64,000 nt of DNA. Source: Streptomyces milbemycinicus (GTDB taxonomy: Bacteria; Actinomycetota; Actinomycetes; Streptomycetales; Streptomycetaceae). Position 1 is the first letter of the stretch, and each line of letters opens with the position of its first letter. Where the stretch lies: positions 1 through 64,000 of the forward strand of contig NZ_MUNE01000045.1 of the NCBI RefSeq assembly GCF_002154605.1, in the 5' to 3' direction. This document shows, piece after piece, positions 18,528 to 31,323 of the stretch. The notes under the pieces were generated by a model. It searched no databases, was not told the DNA's origin, and saw only the letters and a list, made by a program, of their open reading frames with translations. Both the position numbers and the translations under genes were made by a program.

Positions 18528-19430
18528 CTACGCTGCGAGTGTTTGGTCGTTGCGGAACCGCTGGCGCGTCTCGTGGGGTGTGAGGTACCCGAAGAGAGGG
18601 TGTTTGCGCAGGCGGCGCCGGTTGTAGAAGGTCTCGATGAATGCGAAGACATCGGCGCGGGCGGTAGCCCGGTCGGGCCAGGTTCGGGTGCCGATCTCTT
18701 CCTTGAGGACGGCCCAGAAGCTTTCGGCTGCGGCGTTGTCGAAGCAGGAGCCGGTCCGGCCCGTGCTTTGCCGAAGCCCCAAGGCGTGTATCTCAGCGCG
18801 GAATTCGGACGAGGTGTATTCGCTTCCACGGTCGCTGTGTGCGATGCAGCCGGGTTGCAGGCTGCCCCGGCCGTGAGCCATCCGCAGCGCGTCAGTCACC
18901 AGCTCGGCGCGGTGGTGGTCGGCCATCGCGTAGCCGGCGACCTCGCGGGTGGCCAGGTCCAGCCAGCAGGCCAGATACAGCCGGCCCTCTCGCGTGGGCA
19001 GGTACGTGATGCCACCCGGCCGGGTGCCCGGCCGGGTGCCGGGCCGGGTGGCAGTGAAGTCGCGGCCGATCAGGTCCGGCGTCGGCCACGCCTGCTTGTC
19101 GGGCCGGGTCAGCGAGCGGCGTCTTCGGCGCCTGAGGCCGACGATCGCGCGTTCGCGCATGATCCGTTCCACCCGTTTGCGGTTGACCGGCTTTCCCAGC
19201 CGGTGCAGCTCGGCGTGCACCCGCGGGACACCGTAGGCACCTTTTGAGGCCAGGTGGATCACGGCGATCTCATGGGCGAGCGCGTCATCAGCACGTATCC
19301 GCAACTGCCGGGCCTCCTCCGCTTCCAGCCAGGCGTAGAACGAGGAGCGGGCCACGTACAGGACACGGCACAGCAGGGCCACAGGGTATGCGGCCTTCTC
19401 CGCGTCGATGAACCGGTAGCCCTCGCTCAC
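18528..19430 (-). CDS. IS3-family transposase OrfB, probably catalytically dead
   Basis: A 300-residue integrase-type transposase part with an HTH_21-like N-terminus (ASKGAYGVPRVHAELHRLG). The second catalytic Asp (HSDRGSEYTS) and the Glu (NAAAESFWAVLKEE) are present. The first DDE Asp should stand in a motif like VGDITYLPT. Here a tandem repeat reads TRPGTRPGTRPGGITYLPT, so the Asp is replaced by Gly (codon 19011-19013) and three residues are added. The start at 19430 overlaps the orfA stop by four bases; natural expression is as an OrfAB fusion by frameshifting. Confidence 0.85.
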   Translation of the reverse strand: MSEGYRFIDAEKAAYPVALLCRVLYVARSSFYAWLEAEEARQLRIRADDALAHEIAVIHLASKGAYGVPRVHAELHRLGKPVNRKRVERIMRERAIVGLRRRRRRSLTRPDKQAWPTPDLIGRDFTATRPGTRPGTRPGGITYLPTREGRLYLACWLDLATREVAGYAMADHHRAELVTDALRMAHGRGSLQPGCIAHSDRGSEYTSSEFRAEIHALGLRQSTGRTGSCFDNAAAESFWAVLKEEIGTRTWPDRATARADVFAFIETFYNRRRLRKHPLFGYLTPHETRQRFRNDQTLAA

Positions 19431-19726
19431 CGGTCGCTGTCCTGGGCGAAGAAGGCCGCGGCTTTTTTCGGGATCTCGATCGTCTTGTGCTGCTCGATGT
19501 TCTGCTTGCGCAGCCGCGCGAGCTCCTCGCGTTCGGTACCGGTCAGCTCGCCCGGCCTGTCCTCACCACGGTCGTTCCGGTCACGCTTGACCCAGCCGCG
19601 CAGACTCTCCGGACTCACCCCCAGATCCCGCGCAACCTCCGTGATCGTCTTGTCGGAGGAGCGGGCCAACGCGATGGCGTCCCGCTTGAACTCCTCCGAA
19701 TACCGCTTCGAGTACTGACTACCCAC
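19427..19726 (-). CDS. IS3-family transposase OrfA
   Basis: A 99-residue DNA-binding part with the HTH_Tnp_1 pattern (YSEEFKRDAIALARSSDKTI, then TEVARDLGVSPESLRGWVKR) and a C-terminal leucine-zipper-like coiled coil (EREELARLRKQNIEQHKTIE). OrfA binds the element ends. In the fused OrfAB form, made by slippage on AAAAAAG close to the end of this gene, it brings the catalytic part to them. Confidence 0.88.
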   Translation of the reverse strand: MGSQYSKRYSEEFKRDAIALARSSDKTITEVARDLGVSPESLRGWVKRDRNDRGEDRPGELTGTEREELARLRKQNIEQHKTIEIPKKAAAFFAQDSDR

Positions 19727-19857: not shown

Positions 19858-22758
19858 TCACACGACGATGCAGGTCATGGCCGCCCACAGCAGGGGTGAG
19901 TGCTCGGTCCGGCCGTCGGCGCGCCAGCGGTCGAGCTGCTCGCGCTGCCAGCGCCCGAGCCGCTGCACGGGGTCAGGGTCCTCGTGGGCGGTGTCGACGG
20001 CGACGATCGCCTCCGACAGTGGGCGCACGGACTCGGCCAGACCTGCCAGCCGGTGGAACGCGAAGCTGGTCGGCAGCACCCAGCGGGTGGCGGTGACCAG
20101 TTCGGCACCGTTGTGGATCATCGCCGTGGCCAGGCCGAACGACTCGGCGAACCGCAGATCGCCACCGCTCTCACAGCCGATCAGGGCGACCCGCGGCGGC
20201 GCGGGCCAGATCCGCGCCCCCGGCTCACCGTCAGCCCGCAGGGGCAGCGTGCCCAGCAGGAGGTCCTTGGCCGACAGCGGCCGATGCGTGCGGACCGCCT
20301 CGGCCAGGCCGACGGTCTCCGGACCGCAGGACAGATGCAGCGTGCCGTCCTCGCTCTGCCCGCCCTCGACCGGTGTGCCGCTCACATGCCCGACGTACAT
20401 CAGTCGGCGTGCCCCCTTGCGGAGCACGCCGCTCAGCCAGTCCCGGTCCAGGTCGGTGCGGCGGAACGCCTCCGCCGGGCCGGCGAGGGACGGCTCGACG
20501 GCGCCCGCGTCGAGGCGGCTTTGGACCAGCGCCAGCAGCTCCGGATCCGAGCCGGGCGGCCCCAGGACCGAGCCGAGCGGGGAGTCGGCGCGGAATCCGG
20601 GCACCCGGGGGTCGAGGACGAGCACGACCGGGCCGGTGTCCCGCGCCGGACCTTCAGGAGCGCGCTGCACTGTGTTCTGTCGTCGCAACGACGTCGGCGC
20701 GGTGGTCACCACGTCCGCCAGCTCGATGAGCCGGGTGCCGGCGTCGTCGACGGCCAGCAGTTCCCATGGGACTTGAGCGACCCGCGGCGACGGCTGGATG
20801 CGGACCAGCGGGCGGCCCGCGCGCTCCGACACCTGGCGGATCTGCGCCGTCAGCCCCTCCGGCCACAGCGCCTCGGCCAGCGTCCGCGCGAGTTGCCGCT
20901 CGGCGCGGTGATCGGCCAGCGCGCCCGACTCGAACGCCCGCCGCATCCCGGCGGTCCCCTCGCCCGAGCCGGGGAGCGCCTCGGCCAGCTCACGTACCGC
21001 ACGGTCGACTTCGGCTGCGGGGCCGTGTCCGGTGCCGAACCCCTGGGCGCCGCCGGCCCACGTCCAGGTCATGAACAGGTCGCCCGCGTCGGCCAGCCGG
21101 ATCTGGACCACGGGGCGGGCGGTCAGCTCGTCGGTGATCCAGAACGGCACCTCCTCCTCGTCCACGATCCGTCGGCGATAGCGGAACTCTGCCGCCGCGA
21201 TGAACTCCTGGAGCGCGACCCGGCCGGACTCCGCCGACATCCGCACCTTCCGCGGCGGCGCGACCCGCAGCCCGGCGGAGGCGGCGGCCTCGGCGGCCAC
21301 ACCCCCGAGGGCCATCGGCCCGCCGTCGCCGTACGCCTTCATGCCCGCGTTCGGGAAGACCGTCGGCCCGTCATGCCCGTCGTCGGGGCCCGGCCCTGGA
21401 CCCAGTGCCAGCGCGGCGCCTGCGCACCGGTGTTCCACCAGCTCGAAGAGGAGCCCCTGGTCCTGGCGGCGCACGGCGAGACGGAACGCCAACTGCATGG
21501 CCCTGTCCGCCAGTTGAAGCCACTGGGCGCGCGCGTGGGCGGTGACGAAGTCGTGGCGTGCCGCGGCCAGCGCCAGGGCGGCGGGCAGGGCGAGGGAGAG
21601 CGCGGTGTCGATGGACCGCGTCTCGTGCCGGCCGTGGTCCGTCCGGTTCAGGTTGTCCTCAAGGGCGCCCGCGAGCATGAGGTCGACCTGGGCGCACCGC
21701 TCGTGGATCGCCCGTGCCTGGTAGACGTCACGGGCCTCCTGGGCCAGCCGCTTCATCTCCTCGATGTCGCCCCGCTCGTACGCGTGTTGGGCGCCCAGCA
21801 GCATGGAGTCGGCGGCGGCCACCGAGGCGCCGAGCCGCTCGAACCGGTCCAGGCTCGCCGTCGCGAGGTCGTGCGCCCCGGCGGTGTCGCCGCGCAGACC
21901 GGCGAGATGGCTGCGGGCCTGTTCACAGACCGCCAGATCACCGAACCTCCGCTGCTCCTCGAAGAACGCGGACGCCTCGGCGAACAGCCGCTCAGCGAGG
22001 TCGAGTTCACCGCGCTCCATGGCGAGGGACGCCCGGTGCGCGAGCAGCGTCTGCCGCTCCCCGGTGTCCCCCAGCGCCCGGAAGCCGTCGTCCGCGCGGG
22101 CGAAGCAGTCCTCGGCCAGGTCGAACCGTCCGGTCGTGGCACAGATCGTGCCGAGCGCGGTCAGCAGGCGTGGGACGGCCTCCGCGGCGGTGGCCGGAGT
22201 CGTGGACAACAAGAGCGTGGCCTGTTCCTCCGCCCTTCCCCACTCGCCCCGGTTCATCAGCAACAGGACCCGGTTCAGGCCGAGTTCGGCGGCGCGCAGC
22301 CCATCAGGGTCGTCGAACTCGGGGAACAGGGCCGCCGCTTCGTCCAAACAGGCCAACGACTCGTCCAGACGCCCCGTCCTGCTCATCACGTCGGACCTGG
22401 CGATGAGTGTCTTCAGTACGGTTTCCAGCCACAGTTGACGGCCCTGCGGGCCCATCTGCGCCGACGCGATGCCCTCGAGCAGGGCCAGGGACCGTTCGAC
22501 CGCACCCTCCGCCCCGGGCAGGTCCGAGGCGGTGAGGAGGACGATGGCGAGGTCGGACAGCACGTGCGCGCGCAGGAACCGCACGTCGGGCGAGTCCTCG
22601 ATGGACTCGGCCAGGGTGAGCATCTCGCCGTACACGGCGCACGCGGCCGCGAAGTCGGCGGCCATGTGGTGCTCGTGGGCCAGGGCGAAGCGGCTGTCGA
22701 ACGGCTCCCCGTACAGTTGCGCCGCCCCCTGGACCTGTGACTCGTTCTCGTCCGGCAT
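19858..22758 (-). CDS. TPR-CHAT protein (caspase-like protease)
   Basis: A 966-residue protein. Residues about 1-430 are helical tetratricopeptide-type repeats (for example AAACAVYGEMLTLAES, LDESLACLDEAAALFPEF, GDIEEMKRLAQEARDVYQA). The C-terminal 350 residues form a CHAT domain with the expected dyad: His791 in MYVGHVSG and Cys862 in ALIGCESGGD. CHAT proteins are clan CD proteases related to caspases and separase. In some type III CRISPR systems a TPR-CHAT protease is held inactive by its TPR part and released by target RNA. No CRISPR genes are visible here. It is the last gene of a three-gene operon, with its ATG three bases after the preceding stop and GAGGAC as ribosome binding site. It may cleave one of its operon partners when triggered; that is inference. 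Confidence 0.85.
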   Translation of the reverse strand: MPDENESQVQGAAQLYGEPFDSRFALAHEHHMAADFAAACAVYGEMLTLAESIEDSPDVRFLRAHVLSDLAIVLLTASDLPGAEGAVERSLALLEGIASAQMGPQGRQLWLETVLKTLIARSDVMSRTGRLDESLACLDEAAALFPEFDDPDGLRAAELGLNRVLLLMNRGEWGRAEEQATLLLSTTPATAAEAVPRLLTALGTICATTGRFDLAEDCFARADDGFRALGDTGERQTLLAHRASLAMERGELDLAERLFAEASAFFEEQRRFGDLAVCEQARSHLAGLRGDTAGAHDLATASLDRFERLGASVAAADSMLLGAQHAYERGDIEEMKRLAQEARDVYQARAIHERCAQVDLMLAGALEDNLNRTDHGRHETRSIDTALSLALPAALALAAARHDFVTAHARAQWLQLADRAMQLAFRLAVRRQDQGLLFELVEHRCAGAALALGPGPGPDDGHDGPTVFPNAGMKAYGDGGPMALGGVAAEAAASAGLRVAPPRKVRMSAESGRVALQEFIAAAEFRYRRRIVDEEEVPFWITDELTARPVVQIRLADAGDLFMTWTWAGGAQGFGTGHGPAAEVDRAVRELAEALPGSGEGTAGMRRAFESGALADHRAERQLARTLAEALWPEGLTAQIRQVSERAGRPLVRIQPSPRVAQVPWELLAVDDAGTRLIELADVVTTAPTSLRRQNTVQRAPEGPARDTGPVVLVLDPRVPGFRADSPLGSVLGPPGSDPELLALVQSRLDAGAVEPSLAGPAEAFRRTDLDRDWLSGVLRKGARRLMYVGHVSGTPVEGGQSEDGTLHLSCGPETVGLAEAVRTHRPLSAKDLLLGTLPLRADGEPGARIWPAPPRVALIGCESGGDLRFAESFGLATAMIHNGAELVTATRWVLPTSFAFHRLAGLAESVRPLSEAIVAVDTAHEDPDPVQRLGRWQREQLDRWRADGRTEHSPLLWAAMTCIVV

Positions 22759-22761
22759 CCG

Positions 22762-24045
22762 TCAGTAGTCCTCACGCGTGGCGGTGGCGGCGAGGGTCTC
22801 GGCAAGGAAAGGCGCCGAGACGCTGTGGTACGCGTCGTCGGATGTCAGGGGCTGCGCCGCGGCGGCCAGTCGGCGTCGGGCCAGGGCGCGGGCCGCGTCA
22901 CGGTCGGCGCGGCCCCCGGGACCGGCGCCTGGGTCGAAACCGGGCAGCAGGACTCCGACGTCGACATGGGGCGGTGTCGTCGCCGGCAGATCGAGATGCG
23001 GGCTCAGGCCGAGATCCGCCCGGCCGGTCCACACGTCGTCCCGTCTGGCGAGGGGCACCCGGCTCGGCGGGCCGCCGTTCACCTGGACCTCCGCGACGAG
23101 CAGCGCACCCGCGACGGGAGCCGCGACGTGCGCGACGACCTCGACCTCGATCTGGCGGCGCGCACCGAGCGCGCGGGCGGTCCAGGAGACCGAGTCCTCG
23201 GCGGCGTCGACGAACCCCGGCGGGTAGCGGCGCCAGTCGTTCGTCCCCGAGCCCCGGGCGACGACCCGGCCGCCGGGCACGGGTGCGTCGCCTGCCGCGA
23301 GGGCGTAGCCGTCCCGCCGAGCGAACAGCGTGCCCGCGTCGACGGGCGTACGTACCAGGCCCCGCTCCAGGGCCGAGCGGAGTTCACGCAGGGCCGGCCC
23401 GTCCAGCCCGGCGCCGTCCGCCGCGTCGTCGATCAGCCGCAGGACGTTCTCCAAGTGGCGTGCCGTGCCCGCTGGTTGTGGTGCCGAGCGCCACCACTGG
23501 ATCAGCGGGCCGAGTCCGGCCCGGTGCTCTTCGATGAGTTCGGGCACGCAGTCGTCGGGCTGGTCACCGAAGTCGTCGAACAACTGCTGGCACCGGTGGG
23601 TGAGCGCCGCCGACTCCAGGCCGAGCACATCCGGTTCGAGCACCGCAATGCCGTCGGTGTACGACGCCGGCCACCACCGGGCCGCCCAGTGCGCCAACCC
23701 GAGCCGGGCGGCAGCGCCCGCGAGAGCGCCGAGGTCCACCGGCACGGGGCTCACCTCGCCTCCCCCTGCCGCGCACGCGTGCACCGCGGCAGCGGTGGGC
23801 TCGCCGTAGACCGCCCACAGCCATTCCAGCGCCCGCCCCACGTCATGCACTTCCGCCACCGGCGGCCTCGGCTCCCCGAGGATGGGCCAGACCAGCACAG
23901 CGCCCGCGACGTCGAGAACGGAGCGCGCGAAGTCGGGGCCTGGGGCGTCCACATCGTCATGGGTGAAGACAGGGCTGCCGGCGGCGACCCGGATCGTGCC
24001 GTCCGCGCCCTGCGCGACGTGGATGAGCGACCCGTTCTGGGCCAT
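22762..24045 (-). CDS. Unknown second protein of the CHAT operon
   Basis: A 427-residue protein. The ATG at 24045 overlaps the stop of the gene before it (TGATG), and the CHAT gene follows after three bases, so the three are surely co-expressed. No family is recognised. The first 200 residues are mixed alpha/beta with many Trp (ALEWLWAVYGEPTAAAVHAC, LAHWAARWWPASYTDG). Residues about 190-260 are helical. Residues about 310-390 look like a beta-sandwich (RQIEVEVVAHVAAPVAGALL, PLARRDDVWTGRADLGLSPH). The C-terminus is Asp/Arg-rich. There is no signal peptide. Context makes it a candidate sensor, regulator or substrate of the CHAT protease. Confidence 0.7.
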   Translation of the reverse strand: MAQNGSLIHVAQGADGTIRVAAGSPVFTHDDVDAPGPDFARSVLDVAGAVLVWPILGEPRPPVAEVHDVGRALEWLWAVYGEPTAAAVHACAAGGGEVSPVPVDLGALAGAAARLGLAHWAARWWPASYTDGIAVLEPDVLGLESAALTHRCQQLFDDFGDQPDDCVPELIEEHRAGLGPLIQWWRSAPQPAGTARHLENVLRLIDDAADGAGLDGPALRELRSALERGLVRTPVDAGTLFARRDGYALAAGDAPVPGGRVVARGSGTNDWRRYPPGFVDAAEDSVSWTARALGARRQIEVEVVAHVAAPVAGALLVAEVQVNGGPPSRVPLARRDDVWTGRADLGLSPHLDLPATTPPHVDVGVLLPGFDPGAGPGGRADRDAARALARRRLAAAAQPLTSDDAYHSVSAPFLAETLAATATREDY

Positions 24046-25442
24046 CACGTGCTCCTCGGCTCGGCCGTGTCCACGGCGGTCGCCGCCGACAGGGTGCGCA
24101 GTGCCGATCGGACCCTGTCGCGGTGGTCCATCATCACCGAGCGGGATACCCCGTCGAGCACCGCCCAGAGCGAGGCGAGGTCCCCCAGGGGCGCGTCGCG
24201 GACGTCCCGCCCGTGCAGCCGCACCCACAGCCGCCGCATATAGGCGGCCCAGGGGGTGCGCAGGTCCCGGGCGAGGGCGTCCAGGACGCCGCCGCTGTCG
24301 CCGTGGCCGCCGTCCGGGTCGGGGCGGGGAGAAACGGTCATCCTGCGGGCGCGCAGGACCGATGCCTCGCGCCGCCAGCGGCTGTTGACGGCCCGGTGCG
24401 CCGCGGTGCGCCCCGGCGCGGGTTCCCCGGTGCCCAGCGGGTCGAGGCCGACCGCGAGCCGCCCGCCGAGGACGACGGCGACGCGCAGGCTCTCGTCGTG
24501 CAGGCCGAGCGGAGCGCAACTGCGGCCGACCTCCCGCTGAACGAGATCCGGCACGGCCGGCAGCTCCTCGCGCCGGGACGACGACTGCAGCACGACGAAG
24601 AGCCGCTCGAAGAGCGTGCGGTCGAGCGGCGCGGGAAGCGTGGCGGTGGAGGCGGCGCGCCCGACCTTAGGACGCGGCGGCGCCTGGCGCGCGGTCAGCC
24701 CCAGATGCGCCGGCAGCTCCTCGGCGCCCCAGACCTCGCCGGCATGCGCCCACAGCGCCCGGCCGAACAGCCCTCCGTGCCCCGCCTCGACCATGGCCGT
24801 GTACTCCGGCGAGTTCACCGCCGGCCCCATCGGCCCCGCCGCACCGCACGCTTCGAGCACCTCGCCCGCCAGCGCGACCGCCACACCGACGTCGGCGGCG
24901 ACCGGAGGCCGGCCCGCCCACGCGACGGCCAGCTCCCCGTCGAGCCGGGCCCGCCGCGCGGCGTCCGCCAGATGGCCCTTCAGCGCTTCGACAGTACGTC
25001 CGCCGCCCGCGTCCGCCACGTCCTCCACCACGCCCCTCGCCACGGCGTCCGCACCGGCGGAAGGCGCCCCGTACCCGGTCGCCAGCTCGAAACACCGCTG
25101 GAAGTACAGATCCTGGGGGTGACCCGCCACGATCCCCAGAGCCCGGCGGGTCTTCTTGAGCAGCGTGAACCACTGAGCCGTCGCCCGAAGACGCGCACCG
25201 GACTCCTGGATCAGCGCGTCCAGGCGCGCGGCCTGCGCCGGTTCGAGGAAATCCGCCGCGAGTTCGGGACACAGCGACGGCCTGACGATCAACGGCAGCA
25301 CGATCAGCTTGACCGTCCGGGTCAACGGCGCCCCGCCGGGCCCGCTCAGCGACTCCAGCCCCGGCCCGAGGCCACGCCAGGCACGGTCGATGACCAGGGC
25401 GCGAGATCGGCATGCATCGGTCGGCTGGCTCGGCGGCGGCAT
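24045..25442 (-). CDS. Unknown first protein of the CHAT operon
   Basis: A 465-residue protein if started at the ATG at 25442 (MPPPSQPTDA). No ribosome binding site is evident, so a later start is possible. The N-terminal part (PLTRTVKLIVLPLIVRPSLC) is followed by a long helical, Ala/Arg/Glu-rich body (ARLDALIQESGARLRATAQW, VEALKGHLADAARRARLDGE). A C-terminal region with aromatic residues (PWAAYMRRLWVRLHGRDVRD) completes it. No catalytic motif, membrane helix or known domain was recognised. It is coupled to the next gene by TGATG and divergent from a five-gene plus-strand operon 118 bases away. Confidence 0.65.
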   Translation of the reverse strand: MPPPSQPTDACRSRALVIDRAWRGLGPGLESLSGPGGAPLTRTVKLIVLPLIVRPSLCPELAADFLEPAQAARLDALIQESGARLRATAQWFTLLKKTRRALGIVAGHPQDLYFQRCFELATGYGAPSAGADAVARGVVEDVADAGGGRTVEALKGHLADAARRARLDGELAVAWAGRPPVAADVGVAVALAGEVLEACGAAGPMGPAVNSPEYTAMVEAGHGGLFGRALWAHAGEVWGAEELPAHLGLTARQAPPRPKVGRAASTATLPAPLDRTLFERLFVVLQSSSRREELPAVPDLVQREVGRSCAPLGLHDESLRVAVVLGGRLAVGLDPLGTGEPAPGRTAAHRAVNSRWRREASVLRARRMTVSPRPDPDGGHGDSGGVLDALARDLRTPWAAYMRRLWVRLHGRDVRDAPLGDLASLWAVLDGVSRSVMMDHRDRVRSALRTLSAATAVDTAEPRST

Positions 25443-25560
25443 GCGGCGAGCGTACGTCGTCCGGGAACGGGCGGGCGAACCTGGGATCGGTAGGAGGTTC
25501 GGGCCGCCTAGCGTCCACACCGTGCACCGCACATGACATCACCACAAGGAGAAGCGGCCA
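25443..25560. promoter_or_regulatory. Divergent promoter region between the CHAT operon and the small-gene operon
   Basis: These 118 bases must contain promoters for both directions. AAGGAG lies about ten bases before the ATG at 25561. I see no strong -10/-35 pair and no obvious palindrome, so regulation cannot be read from sequence. Confidence 0.5.
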
Positions 25561-25985
25561 TGGGAATCTTCAGCAAGCGCAGCAAGAACCGCGAGGTGCG
25601 GGCCGCCGAGATCGCCGACCAGGTGGCCGACGGCAAGGGGTTCTACGGCCGTGCCACGCGCGCGTTCCTCGCCAAGGAGGACTTCGCCAAGGTCCAGCAG
25701 ACGATCGGCGCGTACAAGTCAGGCCAGGACGTCCGGCAACTGCTCGCCATGGGTGCGCCGACCGTACCGGCCGTCGTCGTGTCGATCGGCGACACCGGCC
25801 GGCTGGTCAACTTCGACCCGGTCGTCGACCTGGTCCTCCAGCCGTCCGGGACAACCGACCGGACCACCGTCCAGACCGTCGTCTCCAAACTGCGCATCCC
25901 CCGCACCGGCGACCAGGTCCTGCTGATCGCCGACCCCGCGCGGCCGGGCGGCTACCTCTACGCCGGGGACGGCGTCACTCCGTGA
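25561..25985 (+). CDS. Small hypothetical protein, first gene of the divergent operon
   Basis: A 141-residue protein with a clear ribosome binding site (AAGGAG). The N-terminus is basic and helical (SKRSKNREVRAAEIADQVAD). The remainder reads as a compact alpha/beta domain (VPAVVVSIGDTGRLVNFDPV, then VDLVLQPSG and TGDQVLLIADPARP). The stop overlaps the next start (GTGA), giving tight coupling. I do not recognise the family. The operon carries several short soluble and membrane proteins and may be functionally linked to the CHAT genes it diverges from. Confidence 0.65.
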
Positions 25986-26260
25986 CCTCGCCGATCTTCC
26001 ACGAAGCGCCGGCGAGCGACTTTGTCCTGCTCTCCTTCGACGGCCGGGTGCTGGAGGTGTTCGGTTACGTCGACGACGCCCGCTATCACCTCTGGGAGCG
26101 GCCTCGGCTGGAGTTCCGCCCCGGCCGAAGCCGCAGAGCGTCGATCGTCACCAGGCACGGCAGACGCCACACCATCCCGTACGACGCACACCTGCTCCCC
26201 GGCCTGCAAGCCCTGGCGGCCCGGCTGGCTGAGAGCGTGTCCGAGACCCCGGAGCCCTGA
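25982..26260 (+). CDS. Small hypothetical protein
   Basis: A 92-residue protein starting at the GTG at 25982, which overlaps the preceding stop. It reads VLLSFDGRVLEVFGYVDDAR, then YHLWERPRLEFRPGRSRRAS and RHTIPYDAHLLPGLQALAAR. This pattern of beta strands followed by a C-terminal helix resembles small PH-like proteins common in Streptomyces. The next gene starts one base after its stop, so this is part of one operon. Function is unknown. Confidence 0.6.
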   Translation: MTSPIFHEAPASDFVLLSFDGRVLEVFGYVDDARYHLWERPRLEFRPGRSRRASIVTRHGRRHTIPYDAHLLPGLQALAARLAESVSETPEP

Positions 26261-26261
26261 C

Positions 26262-26723
26262 ATGGCGGACGACGCGGACGGGACCCGGTGGACGCAGGTG
26301 TCGCGGGTCGGCCCGGGGGGTGCCGCCTCCGCGTACGGCAGCGCGGCGGTGATGTGCGTGTGCGGCCCGGTCATGCTCGGCTCGGCCCTCCTCGGCGCCG
26401 CGGACCTCATGGTCATGGGCATCGTCTTCACGGTGGTCTTCCTTCCTCTGGGCCTGGCGTTCTGGGGCAACACCACTGTCGAGCGGGAGCACAACCGACG
26501 GCTCGACGCCGTAGGGGTTGCGGCGACTGCGGAGATCACCGAGCTGACCGACTGGGACGACGGAGACGACGTCGGCGTCACGGTGGGCCTGCGGGTCAGC
26601 GGGCCGGGATTCCGGACGTTCGAGACGACCTGGAGACGCTCGCACCATGGCGCCCTGCGCGTGGGCCTGCGCCTCACGGCCGTCGTGGACCCGTACAACG
26701 GCATCTTCCGCGTGGAGATCTGA
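26262..26723 (+). CDS. Small membrane protein
   Basis: A 153-residue protein with two membrane helices near the N-terminus (AAVMCVCGPVMLGSALLGAA and MVMGIVFTVVFLPLGLAFWG). A soluble beta-rich C-terminal domain follows (ATAEITELTDWDDGDDVGV, FETTWRRSHHGALRVGLRL, AVVDPYNGIFRV). The layout resembles DUF3592-type proteins, like its neighbour. Its stop overlaps the next start (TGATG). Function is unknown. Confidence 0.6.
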   Translation: MADDADGTRWTQVSRVGPGGAASAYGSAAVMCVCGPVMLGSALLGAADLMVMGIVFTVVFLPLGLAFWGNTTVEREHNRRLDAVGVAATAEITELTDWDDGDDVGVTVGLRVSGPGFRTFETTWRRSHHGALRVGLRLTAVVDPYNGIFRVEI

Positions 26724-27580
26724 TGAGGAATCACGAGGCACTGGAGTTCTGGTGGGTGATACCCGCCGCGCTGGCGCTGCTCGGCTACGCGCGCTCGCTC
26801 GCCGGGGTGACCCGGGCCCAGCGAGCGGTATGGGTGAAGGCGCGGATCGTGGCAGTGGAGCAGCCGGCCCACGGCGGCTCCAGGAAGCCCGGGATACCGG
26901 TGACGCTCACGTTCCAGGACCCGGGCACGGGCCGGGAGTTCACCTTGTCGAACGCCGGCAAGCACGGCGAGGCGATCGAGGAGGCCTGGGTGGGCCGGGA
27001 GGTCGAGGTGCGCTACCCGCCAGGGCAGCCTCTCCGGTTCGCCGTCGTGCTGGGCGGCGCGGGGGAGCAGACCGGCCGCGAGGGTCCCGACTGTGCAGTC
27101 ATGCTGCTCCTCATCGGGCTGGTGATCCACGCGACCGTCCGCTGGGGCTGGCCATGGGCGCTGCTCGGCTTCGGCACTCTGCTGACGGCTGCCGCGGTGA
27201 GGAGCCCCGACATCCGCATGGTGCGCGCCCGCAACGCCCAGCTGGCCTCGGCCGTAGCCGTCCCGGCCCGGGTGGTGGCCGTCACCCGGGACGTCTACAC
27301 CGACGACGAGTCCGGCGGCGACATCGTCGTCCATGCCCCGGTCATCGCCTTCACCACCCACGAGGGCGCCCACGTCACCGCCCTGTCCGGCGAGGGCATC
27401 CCCGATCCGGGCCGGTCCCTCCACCGCGCCCTCACCATCCACTACGCCCCCACCGACCCGGCCGTCTACACCCCCGACCCCGCGGCCGACCGCCGTTCGG
27501 GAGCGATGAACATCGCCTTCGTCGTCGCCCTCCTGCTGGCCGGGGCAGCGGGGGCAGTGGTCGGCGCGGTCATGTTGTGA
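26723..27580 (+). CDS. DUF3592-type membrane protein
   Basis: A 285-residue protein. A membrane helix near the N-terminus (WWVIPAALALLGYARSLAGV) precedes a DUF3592-like domain (VKARIVAVEQPAHGGS, IPVTLTFQDPGTGREF, GREVEVRYPPGQPLRFAVVL). Two central helices follow (MLLLIGLVIHATVRWGWPWA, LLGFGTLLTAAAV). A second DUF3592-like domain (VPARVVAVTRDVYTDD and following) and a C-terminal helix (IAFVVALLLAGAAGAVVGAV) complete it. Such proteins are of unknown role. Translational overlap places it in the same operon as its neighbours. Confidence 0.65.
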   Translation: MRNHEALEFWWVIPAALALLGYARSLAGVTRAQRAVWVKARIVAVEQPAHGGSRKPGIPVTLTFQDPGTGREFTLSNAGKHGEAIEEAWVGREVEVRYPPGQPLRFAVVLGGAGEQTGREGPDCAVMLLLIGLVIHATVRWGWPWALLGFGTLLTAAAVRSPDIRMVRARNAQLASAVAVPARVVAVTRDVYTDDESGGDIVVHAPVIAFTTHEGAHVTALSGEGIPDPGRSLHRALTIHYAPTDPAVYTPDPAADRRSGAMNIAFVVALLLAGAAGAVVGAVML

Positions 27581-27626
27581 CACCCCGGAAGGCGACCGGA
27601 AGGGGATAAGGAGCGGAAGAGGAGCA

Positions 27627-28331
27627 ATGCGCAGCCATATAGGTGTGTTCGTCGAGAATCTCGTGTTCACAGCGCTCTGCTTGTCGACAGGCCCGGTCTT
27701 CCTCGTCCTCCAAGGCGCCGCCTGTCATGACGGCACGAGCTGGGGCTGGGCAGTGTCCGCATTCGGCGCGGCCGTCACCGTCATGATCTCTGTCCTGGCT
27801 CTCCGCTCGACGCGCGCCGAGTTCCCTCGGATCACGGGCGGGGACCGCGTGCGGGCCGAGAGCGGCTCGTACGGGGACGACACCTTCGTGATGTGGGCGC
27901 CACGGTCCGAACCGGGGTCGGTGGGCGCGCGGTTGGTGCGGGCGGACGTCCTGGAGGCGTCGTCGGTGCGGTACGACCCTGACGGAGAGGGGACGTTCAC
28001 GACGTACGTGGGCGACTACGCGCCCGCCGAGTTTACGCCGCTGGTCAGGCTGAGGCTGCGGGTGCACGCCGCGGAGGAGGCGGAAGGGGCTGTGGGGCTC
28101 TCCGGGTTCGAGATCACGGACGAGTGGCGGGCCCCGGCCCTGTGCCTGTCGGCGATCACGGCGGGCCGACTGGCCGTCCTCACAGACGGCCTTGGCAAGG
28201 TCACCGCCCTCTGGCCGCACAGCGTCCTGCTCTCGGGCACGAGAACCTGCCGGTTCATCGACCACGACGGTCGGCTGATCGACGTGACGCGACGCACCGG
28301 GCATCTGCTGGAACAGATGCGGCTCTTCTAG
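27627..28331 (+). CDS. Membrane protein with a soluble C-terminal domain
   Basis: A 234-residue protein. The ATG at 27627 follows AGAGGAGC. Two N-terminal membrane helices (LVFTALCLSTGPVFLVLQGA, WGWAVSAFGAAVTVMISVLA) are followed by a domain with many beta strands (VRLRLRVHAAEEAEGAVGL, AITAGRLAVLTDGLGKVTAL, RTCRFIDHDGRLIDVTR). It is probably the last gene of the five-gene operon, 46 bases after the previous stop. No family was recognised. Confidence 0.6.
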   Translation: MRSHIGVFVENLVFTALCLSTGPVFLVLQGAACHDGTSWGWAVSAFGAAVTVMISVLALRSTRAEFPRITGGDRVRAESGSYGDDTFVMWAPRSEPGSVGARLVRADVLEASSVRYDPDGEGTFTTYVGDYAPAEFTPLVRLRLRVHAAEEAEGAVGLSGFEITDEWRAPALCLSAITAGRLAVLTDGLGKVTALWPHSVLLSGTRTCRFIDHDGRLIDVTRRTGHLLEQMRLF

Positions 28332-29354: not shown

Positions 29355-30200
29355 GTGGCCGAACGTGTGCGGATCCGGGAGATTGATGACGACGAGGGCA
29401 GGAGGTTGCTGCGGATCATCCGCCGGGGCACCGGTTCGGTGGTGACCTGGCGGCGGGCCCAGATGGTGCTGTTATCCGCGCAGGGCATGTCCGTGGCGAA
29501 GATCGCCGAGGTGACGTTTACCAGCCCGGACCGGGTCCGGGACGTGATCCACAACTTCAACACCGACGGCTTCGACTCGCTCTACCCGAAGTACAAGGGC
29601 GGCCGGCCGAGAACCTTCACCCTTCCCGAACGCCGGGAGATCAAGAAGATCGCGAAGTCGAAGCCGGCCGAGCACGGCCTGCCGTTCTCGACCTGGAGCC
29701 TGGCCAAGCTGGCGGACTTCCTGGTCGCCGAGGGGGTGGTCGACGACATCAGCCACGAGGGTCCTGCTCCGCGAGGAGGGCGTCTCGTTTCAACGCGTGA
29801 AGACCTGGAAGACCTCCCGCGACCCGCACTACGCGGCCGAAAAGGCCCGCGTCGAGCATCTCTGCGCGATCGCCGACGGCGAAGTCATACCCGAGGACGG
29901 CGAGCCCGAAGTCGTCTTCTGCATGGACGGGTTCGGTCCGCTCAACCTCCAGCCCCATCCCGGCCGGCAATGGGCCGAACGCGGCGGCCGCCACAGGGAT
30001 CCCGACCGCGAGCCCAGACCACGGCGCCGGGCGACCTACACCCGCCCACACGGTGTCCGTCACCTGTTCGCCGCCTACGACCTTGCCAAGGACCAGCTCT
30101 ACGGACACGTCAAGAAGACCAGGAACCGCTCGAAGTTCCTGGAGTTCTGCCGCTACCTGCGCTCGCTGCACCCGGCGAACGTGCGCATGGCGACCATCTG
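29355..30200 (+). pseudogene. IS630-family transposase gene, frameshifted and 3'-truncated
   Basis: The GTG at 29355 starts the N-terminal HTH region (RRAQMVLLSAQGMSVAKIAE, YPKYKGGRPRTFTLPERREI, FSTWSLAKLADFLVAEGVV). A small deletion after DDISHEG shifts the frame. The continuation is VLLREEGVSFQRVKTWKTSR, then FCMDGFGPLNLQPHPGRQW, QLYGHVKKTRNRSKFLEFCR and LRSLHPANVRMATIC. The usual MDEFGPL has become MDGFGPL. The end of the transposase, with the last catalytic acid, is lost where an unrelated gene begins at about 30200. A TTA codon is present early (29470 area). Confidence 0.8.
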
Positions 30201-31323
30201 TGGCGACCTGCTCGGCGGCCTGGAGTCGATCTCCGCCGGCATCACCACCGTCGTCGACCGCAGCCGCCTCCAGACCTCCGCCGACATCAGCGCCGCTCTG
30301 CTGCGTGGCCTGTGGGACAGCGGCGTGGGCGGCTACTTCGCCTACGCGTTGCAGAACGCCCCCGACTGGTCCGGTGACGCACCCGCCGACCCGGAAGCCC
30401 TCAACGACCTCCTCACCCGGGCACCGGACCCGGAACACGACGAGCGCTTCCACGGCATGCGCAAAACGCTCACCGACCTGGACCGGACCGGCTCACACCG
30501 CCTCCGGCTCGGCGTGGCCCTGCCCGAGACAGCCCCCTACCTGCCGCTCGACCTGGTCCGGCCCCTCCTCGAACGCGTCCGATCCCTGGAGCCGGCCCTC
30601 GTCACCGGGCACTGGAACGCTCTGGTGCACGGGGACCACTACGTCTCCACACTCGGGCAACTCGTCGAGGAAGGGCTCTTCGACGGGACGACGGTGCTGT
30701 CACACTGCAACCAGCTCAACGACGGCGACCTCGACGTCATGGCCCGCGCGCACATCGGCCTGGTCACCACACCCGGCACCGAAGGCGGCATGGGGCTGGG
30801 CCCCTTCCTCGCCAGCCGGCTCGTCGCCCGGGGCGGAGCAGCGGCTCTCGGCGTCGACACCACGTGCTACGCACAGGTTGACATCCTCGGCGAGGCGCGG
30901 ACACTGCTGGACGCGGAACGCCGAGACGCGGCCGTCACGGCAGGCGGCATCCCGCAGGAGGTGCAACCCGCACGCGCCGCACTGGAGTTGGCAACCGGCG
31001 TCGGGGCCCGGGCCGTCGGACTACAGGACGAGGTGGGCTCCCTCACCCCGGGCAAGCGCGCGAACGTCACGGTCGTCCTCCCGGACGCCGTACGAGCCCG
31101 CCCCGCCACGGACGCCGTCGCCACGCTGGTCCACTACACCGGACCCGGCGACGTGGAGACGGTGCTCGTCGACGGCGAGATCCGCAAGCGCGCAGGCCAA
31201 CTCGTCGGCATCGACATCGCCGACCTCGCTCGGCGGTGTGCGCAGTCGCTCGATGCCATCCGCAGGCGTTATGCGGCCCTGCCCGCCGATGTCGTCGAAG
31301 GCGCGTGGCGCGGCATGTTCTGA
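30201..31323 (+). pseudogene. Amidohydrolase (AtzA/TrzN/cytosine deaminase type), 5'-truncated
   Basis: From about 30200 the frame inherited from the IS630 relic reads GDLLGGLESISAGITTVVD, VTGHWNALVHGD, TTVLSHCNQLNDGDLDVMAR, GGAAALGVDTTCYAQVDIL and finally LTPGKRANVTVVLPDAVRA with DVETVLVDGEIRKR. This is the latter three quarters of a metal-dependent amidohydrolase. The N-terminal beta-strand with the HxH metal motif is missing, so it should be inactive. There is no own start; it is an in-frame continuation of transposase sequence. A strong terminator follows. Confidence 0.75.

Follow-up and report, generated by a model that had tools for sequence, protein, structure and literature searches.

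Caspase-like CHAT proteases are widespread in bacteria, and few of them, to our knowledge, have a known output. In type III-E CRISPR systems the substrate of the TPR-CHAT protease Csx29 is Csx30, which inhibits a sigma factor (CASP-sigma) with sites in its own locus, and proteolysis feeds a transcription response (PMC10028731). The same source gives DegS-RseA-RpoE as a protease-controlled envelope stress circuit (PMC10028731), and the CATRA ternary systems are presented as caspase-dependent in another paper (PMC8195603). The system described here lies in a stretch of 64,000 nt from Streptomyces milbemycinicus (assembly GCF_002154605.1, contig NZ_MUNE01000045.1, positions 1 to 64,000), the whole of which is referred to as the window. 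It consists of three closely spaced genes, g1, g2 and g3, the last of which encodes a TPR-CHAT protein, and of five small genes, s1 to s5, that run in the opposite direction (Table 1).

Alignment of the intergenic regions between s1 and g1 from related loci shows a near-invariant stretch, GAACCTGGGATCGGTAGG, with the core CTGNGATCGGTAG, termed the box below. The locus looks like a previously undescribed switch for cell-surface remodelling. We give about an even chance to the reading that it is a signalling module built on a CHAT protease and linked to an envelope regulon of its own, with transcription from a bipartite box promoter as its output. What points to this is a set of sequence patterns: a four-part module, an invariant His/Cys pair in the peptidase, the box, its fixed spacing, its placement before genes both linked and unlinked to the operon, and its joint occurrence with the module. 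No title or abstract listed by searches of PubMed Central, whose coverage leaves out most subscription papers, describes the module.

A CATRA operon from a Streptomyces-type genome (L060) resembles the locus in being a three-gene operon in which lineage-specific proteins accompany a TPR-CHAT protein, the probable executor. In this operon, the one CATRA operon checked by Pfam, CATASP has 112 amino acids (aa), CATRA 509 aa and TPR-CHAT 912 aa (CATRA-N PF20269, CATRA-C PF20270, CATASP PF20271 and CHAT). By Pfam as well as by profile comparison, however, neither g1 nor g2 is a CATRA-N/C or CATASP protein. The CATRA families of Pfam are matched neither by g1 and g2 nor by the 52 g1 members of alignment A2 and the 49 g2 members of alignment A3; CATASP is not matched by g1, g2, g3 or s1 to s5; and in hhalign comparisons with 12 CATRA proteins the g1 and g2 profiles, which are shallow, gave less than 1% probability, so that g1 and g2 as CATRA proteins were rejected. 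We know of no shared promoter box or envelope regulon in CATRA systems. The likeness to type III-E, a TPR-CHAT protease that feeds a transcription response, is one of mode and not of membership. The partners here are g1 and g2, and the regulon is of envelope type. No RNA-guided partner turned up, although no search aimed at gRAMP/Cas7-11 or CRISPR arrays was made; PADLOC gave no CRISPR-related match for five locus proteins, and Pfam gave no sigma factor match in the conserved module proteins. Since g1 and g2 fail the CATRA tests, the system is filed as a TPR-CHAT relative in kind, and not as CATRA or type III-E CRISPR. With DegS-RseA-RpoE it would share a logic whereby an envelope signal leads through proteolysis to a dedicated promoter and to envelope genes (PMC10028731); the protease here, however, is a CHAT peptidase with TPRs, and no sigma or anti-sigma factor has been found so far.

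Apart from the window's own genome, 16 of 198 congeneric genomes hold a relative of g2, thus g1-g2-g3 is not a chance run of open reading frames. The three genes are adjacent in 11 of the 16; g3 lies about 9 kb off in L032, fragments only are left in L036, and L037 to L039 are distant forms that have these parts distributed over a larger number of genes. A scan of a species genome collection with the g1 alignment, by means of two short peptide patterns, gave 100 encoding stretches, of which the best 80 were kept and yielded 76 loci. All are actinobacterial (Streptomyces, Kitasatospora, Kutzneria, Saccharothrix, Actinokineospora, Glycomyces, Crossiella and others), and profile searches find g2 in 73, TPR in 68 and CHAT in 66. 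They were assigned by best-matching reference to clade A, close to the window (45 loci; g2 in 42, TPR in 40, CHAT in 39), or to clade B, in which g1 is about 40% identical to that of the window (31 loci; g2 in 31, TPR in 28, CHAT in 27). Seven of the ten loci without CHAT (L073, L078, L100, L111, L112, L117 and L133) hold less than 15 kb and lie at contig ends. Among 396 sampled genomes of the phylum, g1 is matched in the window's own genome and in 10 further hits, all of one other family. A third form of the module, lineage C, is that of a Mycobacterium-like genus of this family with a g1 match in 97 of 148 genomes, a few of the matches being partial. The genus is probably Mycobacterium, judging by the genes taken for L35, L20 and IF-3 and the lysX-type gene (Pfam) beside the locus L194, and by the gene order of mycobacteria.

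The gene order is g1-g2-TPR-CHAT in clade A, and in lineage C it is usually lipoprotein-TPR-CHAT, often followed by a small divergent gene, and then g1-g2; TPR, CHAT and g1 are present in 30 of 30 lineage C loci and g2 in 29. The distances of g1, g2 and CHAT correlate (r 0.95-0.97 for 33 sequences; 0.87-0.92 for 24 of clade B), as would fit a unit that is inherited together. The original prediction, made from the letters of the window, had staked itself on co-occurrence of the three genes elsewhere and on conservation of the peptidase residues. The genes do travel together across the actinobacteria, and the lack of co-occurrence that would have spoken against the prediction was not seen.

The second point concerns g3. 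A Pfam scan of the whole protein finds TPR repeats (residues ~1-540); residues ~540-966 form the CHAT peptidase domain that holds His791 and Cys862. It should be noted that the CHAT match is absent from the listing of the whole-protein scan and was found when the C-terminal 427 residues were scanned alone (PF12770, E 4.4e-12, 46.5 bits against a cut-off of 24). A CHAT match at E 0.01 or better is found in 34 of 34 homologues. Both residues (252 and 323 in the numbering of the C-terminal piece) are conserved without exception in the 34 aligned CHAT domains, a selection from the 66 found among the 76 loci, as well as in 16 of 16 of an earlier, partly overlapping set, and a looser His/Cys motif check held for 30 of 30 lineage C CHAT proteins. 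The loss of conservation that would have counted against the prediction did not appear. Sequence profiles of the PDB gave three chance-level matches for CHAT (E 0.8). Of 39 scorable clade A loci, 23 have TPR and CHAT called as a single gene and 16 as two, and all 26 scorable loci of clade B have them called as separate genes. In three Streptomyces loci of the clade B form (L113, L115 and L125) a further gene, for a TPR-type protein of ~840-950 aa, separates g2 from the usual TPR gene.

The box is upstream of g1 in all 44 clade A loci counted, within 600 bases and with at most one mismatch to the 18-mer, and 37 of these are exact; the remaining locus of the 45, in which g1 is cut by a contig end, was omitted. 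Clade B has the core, with at most one mismatch, within ~400 bases upstream of g1 in 27 of 31 loci. In lineage C the box takes the version TTGGGATCGGTAGC, and a box with at most one mismatch to the core stands upstream of all 28 called lipoprotein genes in the 30 loci; the two loci that have no called lipoprotein gene also carry it. This lipoprotein, the partner gene of lineage C, belongs to the mycobacterial 19-kDa lipoprotein family (PF05481, in 4 of 4 tested), and would be an output of the circuit and not a relative of the module. A -10-like block follows the box at a fixed distance. In clade A the block, TAnnnT, lies 15 bases past GGTAG, with the T, the A and the last T at 98% each (n=44); in all 27 clade B sites an A and a T stand at the same two places of the block; and in lineage C a T..A.T block starts one base nearer the box (90%, 81% and 92%, n=83). 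The closeness of the block TACGCT to the g1 start codon in the window suggests that the g1 transcript is leaderless, in the manner of leaderless actinobacterial transcripts. The box resembles no promoter box known to us.

The box is rare outside genomes that have the module. The window's assembly (11.6 Mb) holds a single match with two or fewer mismatches. Among 199 Streptomyces-type genomes, the exact box is present in 12 of the 13 that have the clade A module, the 13th having one mismatch, and in 0 of the 186 that do not, three distant forms and one remnant included. Matches with two or fewer mismatches are found in 47 of the 199, and those in module-free genomes look mostly like background; the one-mismatch match of G144, a genome without the module, is inside a gene and is the sole such match inspected. 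In the Mycobacterium-like genus the exact 14-mer is present in 102 of 148 genomes with 374 copies, compared to 2 for a reversed-pattern control. It is found in 96 of the 97 g1-positive genomes (361 copies) versus 6 of the 51 g1-negative ones (Fisher p 3.6e-30, a value that overstates the evidence because the genomes are related and not independent).

The divergent partner of the operon differs between lineages. In the 45 clade A loci s1 is found in 43, s4 in 29, s2 and s3 in 17 each and the s5 family in 13, and the partners of clade B are c5 (29 of 31 loci) and c6 (23 of 31), the latter with one hydrophobic segment and a sub-threshold match to a PQQ propeller. Separate boxes serve c5 and c6 in a pair of Glycomyces loci (L137:8587, 9917; L144:8576, 9906). 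The match of s4 to DUF3592 is slightly under the Pfam cut-off. A single family made up of s1, s3, s4, s5 and c5 was rejected, with hhalign probabilities of at most 17%; the 98% obtained for s5 and s2 over 40 columns is taken for an overlap artefact.

Some of these genes keep a box when they are found elsewhere. In 8 loci in which s4 lies at the other end of the operon, an exact core box of its own precedes it; in 7 of these the distance from the box to the called start is 28 bases. In one genome, G120, boxes on other contigs than the module's lie ~190 bases upstream of an s3 relative, ~100 bases upstream of a c5 relative (E 4e-116; this box has one mismatch) and ~175 bases upstream of the gene of a 107-aa protein with a hydrophobic start. 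In a clade B genome an s1 relative (E 1e-66) is preceded, at a distance of 54 bases, by an unlinked box. Thus genes that one lineage keeps next to the operon are found in another as box genes at unlinked sites. The original prediction had set the five divergent genes beside the operon as parts of one system, and this holds: they share the box with the operon, and the relatives of s1, s3 and s4 carry a copy of their own when relocated. In two Streptomyces genomes with the clade B form (L332 and L342) an unlinked box is found 154 bases before the gene of a 215-aa membrane-type protein.

Among the matches listed for lineage C, the genes downstream of 83 distinct sites, out of the 374 copies, were examined, and for 64 of the sites a gene is called that starts within 220 bases. 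The largest groups of these 64 are a membrane protein of the 88-aa type (16), a secreted-type protein with a WCPG...WD.NVCH pattern (13), the lipoprotein of the operon (7) and a soluble protein of 120 aa (6). Other box genes encode a PE-family protein, a CDP-alcohol phosphatidyltransferase-like protein (just under the cut-off) and an acyltransferase, and the latter two are preceded by consecutive boxes in one lineage C genome (L261:511, 1450). By a simple hydropathy rule, a hydrophobic segment is present in 48 of the 64 box genes, versus 74 of 170 neighbours below 300 aa (p 1.7e-5) and 141 of 287 neighbours of any length (p 1.6e-4), both p values being taken over sites from related genomes that are not independent.

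The proteins g1 and g2 have no family match in Pfam, NCBIfam or PADLOC, and Pfam searches with the 52 members of A2 and the 49 of A3 gave scattered weak matches in one or two members only. The model of g1 is all-helical (mean predicted local distance difference test score, pLDDT, 89.2). That of g2 (mean pLDDT 85.8) combines a mixed N-terminal part with helices and, towards the C terminus, a beta-sandwich (residues ~260-366). A Foldseek search of the PDB gave no match below E 0.001 for either model, which is not proof of new folds. VIA-align of the Foldseek candidates reached a best Z of 5.5 for g1 (66 residues, root-mean-square deviation 3.1) and of 6.0 for g2 (74 residues, root-mean-square deviation 2.9, Ig-like, g2 residues 270-373), both in the range of common arrangements. 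PDB sequence profiles gave no match for g1 and one weak match for g2 (E 1.4). The isoelectric point (pI) of g1 is 9.48 in the window and above 8 in 40 of the 52 A2 members; g1 as a basic DNA binder was considered and rejected, as it fits most of A2 and fails in lineage C. A sigma factor, suggested by the helical fold, found no backing from Pfam or from the structure search. Long forms of g1 in Glycomyces were set aside as over-extended gene calls because reference-matched starts give 419-465 aa.

In the signalling reading, an assembly of TPR, g1 and g2 would read an envelope signal and activate the CHAT peptidase, which would then cleave an inhibitor; candidates for this role are g1, g2 and a small protein under box control. 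A box-binding factor, perhaps g1 or a protein encoded at an unlinked site, would be freed in this way, and the box with its -10-like block ~15 bases on would drive genes for small membrane proteins, lipoproteins and secreted proteins, those of the module included. In the window the box region is common to the operon and the five small genes, so the circuit would be self-regulating. A bolder form, which we hold tentatively and think more apt to fail than to stand, makes g1 or g2 a transcription factor of a new kind that the TPR-CHAT caspase-like protease restrains. The module would then be an actinobacterial envelope-sensing switch that acts through one private promoter on species-specific surface proteins, such as the PE proteins, the 19-kDa-family lipoprotein and the lipid-synthesis enzymes of the Mycobacterium-like bacteria. 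Either way, sequence alone connects a caspase-like CHAT protease with a defined promoter and with concrete targets, which makes its function testable. If the signalling reading is right, about two thirds of the sampled Mycobacterium-like genomes have an unrecognised layer of control over their surface proteins, and two conserved but unannotated protein families would gain a role.

A number of observations weigh against this reading, or against g1 as its box binder. At three loci (L103, in which g1 is shortened, L114 and L130) TPR and CHAT are missing though the contig continues. Four clade B loci (L114, L121, L133 and L142) have no core near g1 with one mismatch or fewer, although L133 has one ahead of c6, and the exact 13-base core, searched in 28 clade B genomes and one of lineage C, is present in 1-4 copies in 19 of the 29 and absent from 10. 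In lineage C the sole box is not before g1 in 9 of 10 loci listed, no called gene starts within 220 bases of 19 of the 83 sites, and the pI of g1 is above 8 in 7 of 30 proteins only. The g1 model matched no DNA-binding fold. One genome of the Mycobacterium-like genus, G721, has g1 and CHAT without the exact box, and six have the box without g1 or CHAT. These seven and 13 box-free g1-negative genomes make up the 20 in which CHAT was searched, and CHAT is absent from the six and from the 13.

The six box-bearing genomes point to a factor outside the module. Together with the mostly non-basic g1 of lineage C they argue against g1 as the factor, and keep in play an explanation in which the module is one output among others of an unlinked box-binding regulator and acts downstream, for example as a quality-control protease for envelope proteins, with no signal going back to the promoter. 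The first listed site in two of the six (G650 and G665) precedes a usual family of box genes (L247 and L253), the lipoprotein-TPR-CHAT genes of lineage C sit downstream of a box like any other target, and g1 matched no DNA-binding fold. However the sites of a general regulator should persist in module-free genomes, and the exact box is absent from 45 of the 51 g1-negative genomes and from the 186 Streptomyces-type genomes that lack the clade A module; we think this explanation rather unlikely. A CATRA-type system for antiviral defence or cell suicide, whereby infection unleashes the TPR-CHAT protease to the harm of the cell and the membrane proteins are effectors or targets, appears improbable. 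The operon of L060 likewise pairs lineage-specific proteins with TPR-CHAT, the module is patchy in Streptomyces-type genomes (16 of 198 beyond the window's own), and its wider neighbourhoods vary. But g1 and g2 show no similarity to CATRA proteins, and PADLOC, run on g1, g2, g3, s1 and s5, gave a single weak match, of s1 to a type IIG enzyme (E 0.011). Moreover about two thirds of the Mycobacterium-like genus carry the module, the L194 copy being next to lysX-type and ribosomal protein genes, and the linked regulon, as far as it can be named, is of envelope and not of toxin type. The immune role that the original prediction had offered is not favoured, because the module is common in that genus (97 of 148) and tied to envelope-type genes.

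Least probable, and in our view very unlikely, is the arrangement first proposed, a CHAT protease with g1 and g2 as its dedicated sensor and substrate and with the small genes as accessories. It agrees with g1 and g2 being the most constant partners and with the evolutionary history they share with CHAT, but it does not explain the shared promoter box and the unlinked box genes, and a cleavage site cannot be read from sequence. A conserved CHAT-protease system with two unrecognised partner families is retained from that proposal. For g1 and g2 as substrates no evidence was found; they are as constant in the module as TPR and CHAT.

Table 1. Features of the module in the window, in positions of the whole stretch
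Feature	Position	Strand	Remark	Basis
g1, 465 aa	24045-25442	-	family without annotation	
g2, 427 aa	22762-24045	-	family without annotation	
g3, 966 aa	19858-22758	-	TPR-CHAT	Pfam
s1, 141 aa	25560-25985	+	no hydrophobic segment	open reading frame, simple hydropathy scan
s2, 92 aa	25982-26260	+	no hydrophobic segment	open reading frame, simple hydropathy scan
s3, 153 aa	26262-26723	+	2 hydrophobic segments	open reading frame, simple hydropathy scan
s4, 285 aa	26723-27580	+	2 hydrophobic segments	open reading frame, simple hydropathy scan
s5, 234 aa	27627-28331	+	2 hydrophobic segments	open reading frame, simple hydropathy scan
Conserved box GAACCTGGGATCGGTAGG	25477-25494	+	core CTGNGATCGGTAG at 25481-25493	
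TAGCGT	25509-25514	+	-10-like block for s1	15 bases past GGTAG
TACGCT	25449-25454	-	-10-like block, g1 side	6 bases ahead of g1 start codon

The genes g1 and g2 overlap by one base, g2 and g3 are separated by three bases, and 117 bases lie between g1 and s1. The coordinates first given for the locus are correct, the operon with five small divergent genes is as described, and the membrane segments ascribed to three of the five are found by the hydropathy scan in s3, s4 and s5.

The s5 protein of the window is shorter than all 13 other members of its family, 12 of which have 449-549 aa, and lacks a C-terminal half that is present in these 12. An open reading frame downstream of the shortened s5 (29355-30377, + strand) has a beginning like that of an IS630-type transposase, and two open reading frames just beyond the 3′ end of the CHAT gene (18528-19726, - strand) are taken to be an IS3-type transposase pair. 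An insertion or deletion may have removed the C-terminal half of s5 in the window. In four Glycomyces loci (L132, L137, L140 and L143) a gene of ~930 aa near the module presumably encodes an Hsp70-like protein.

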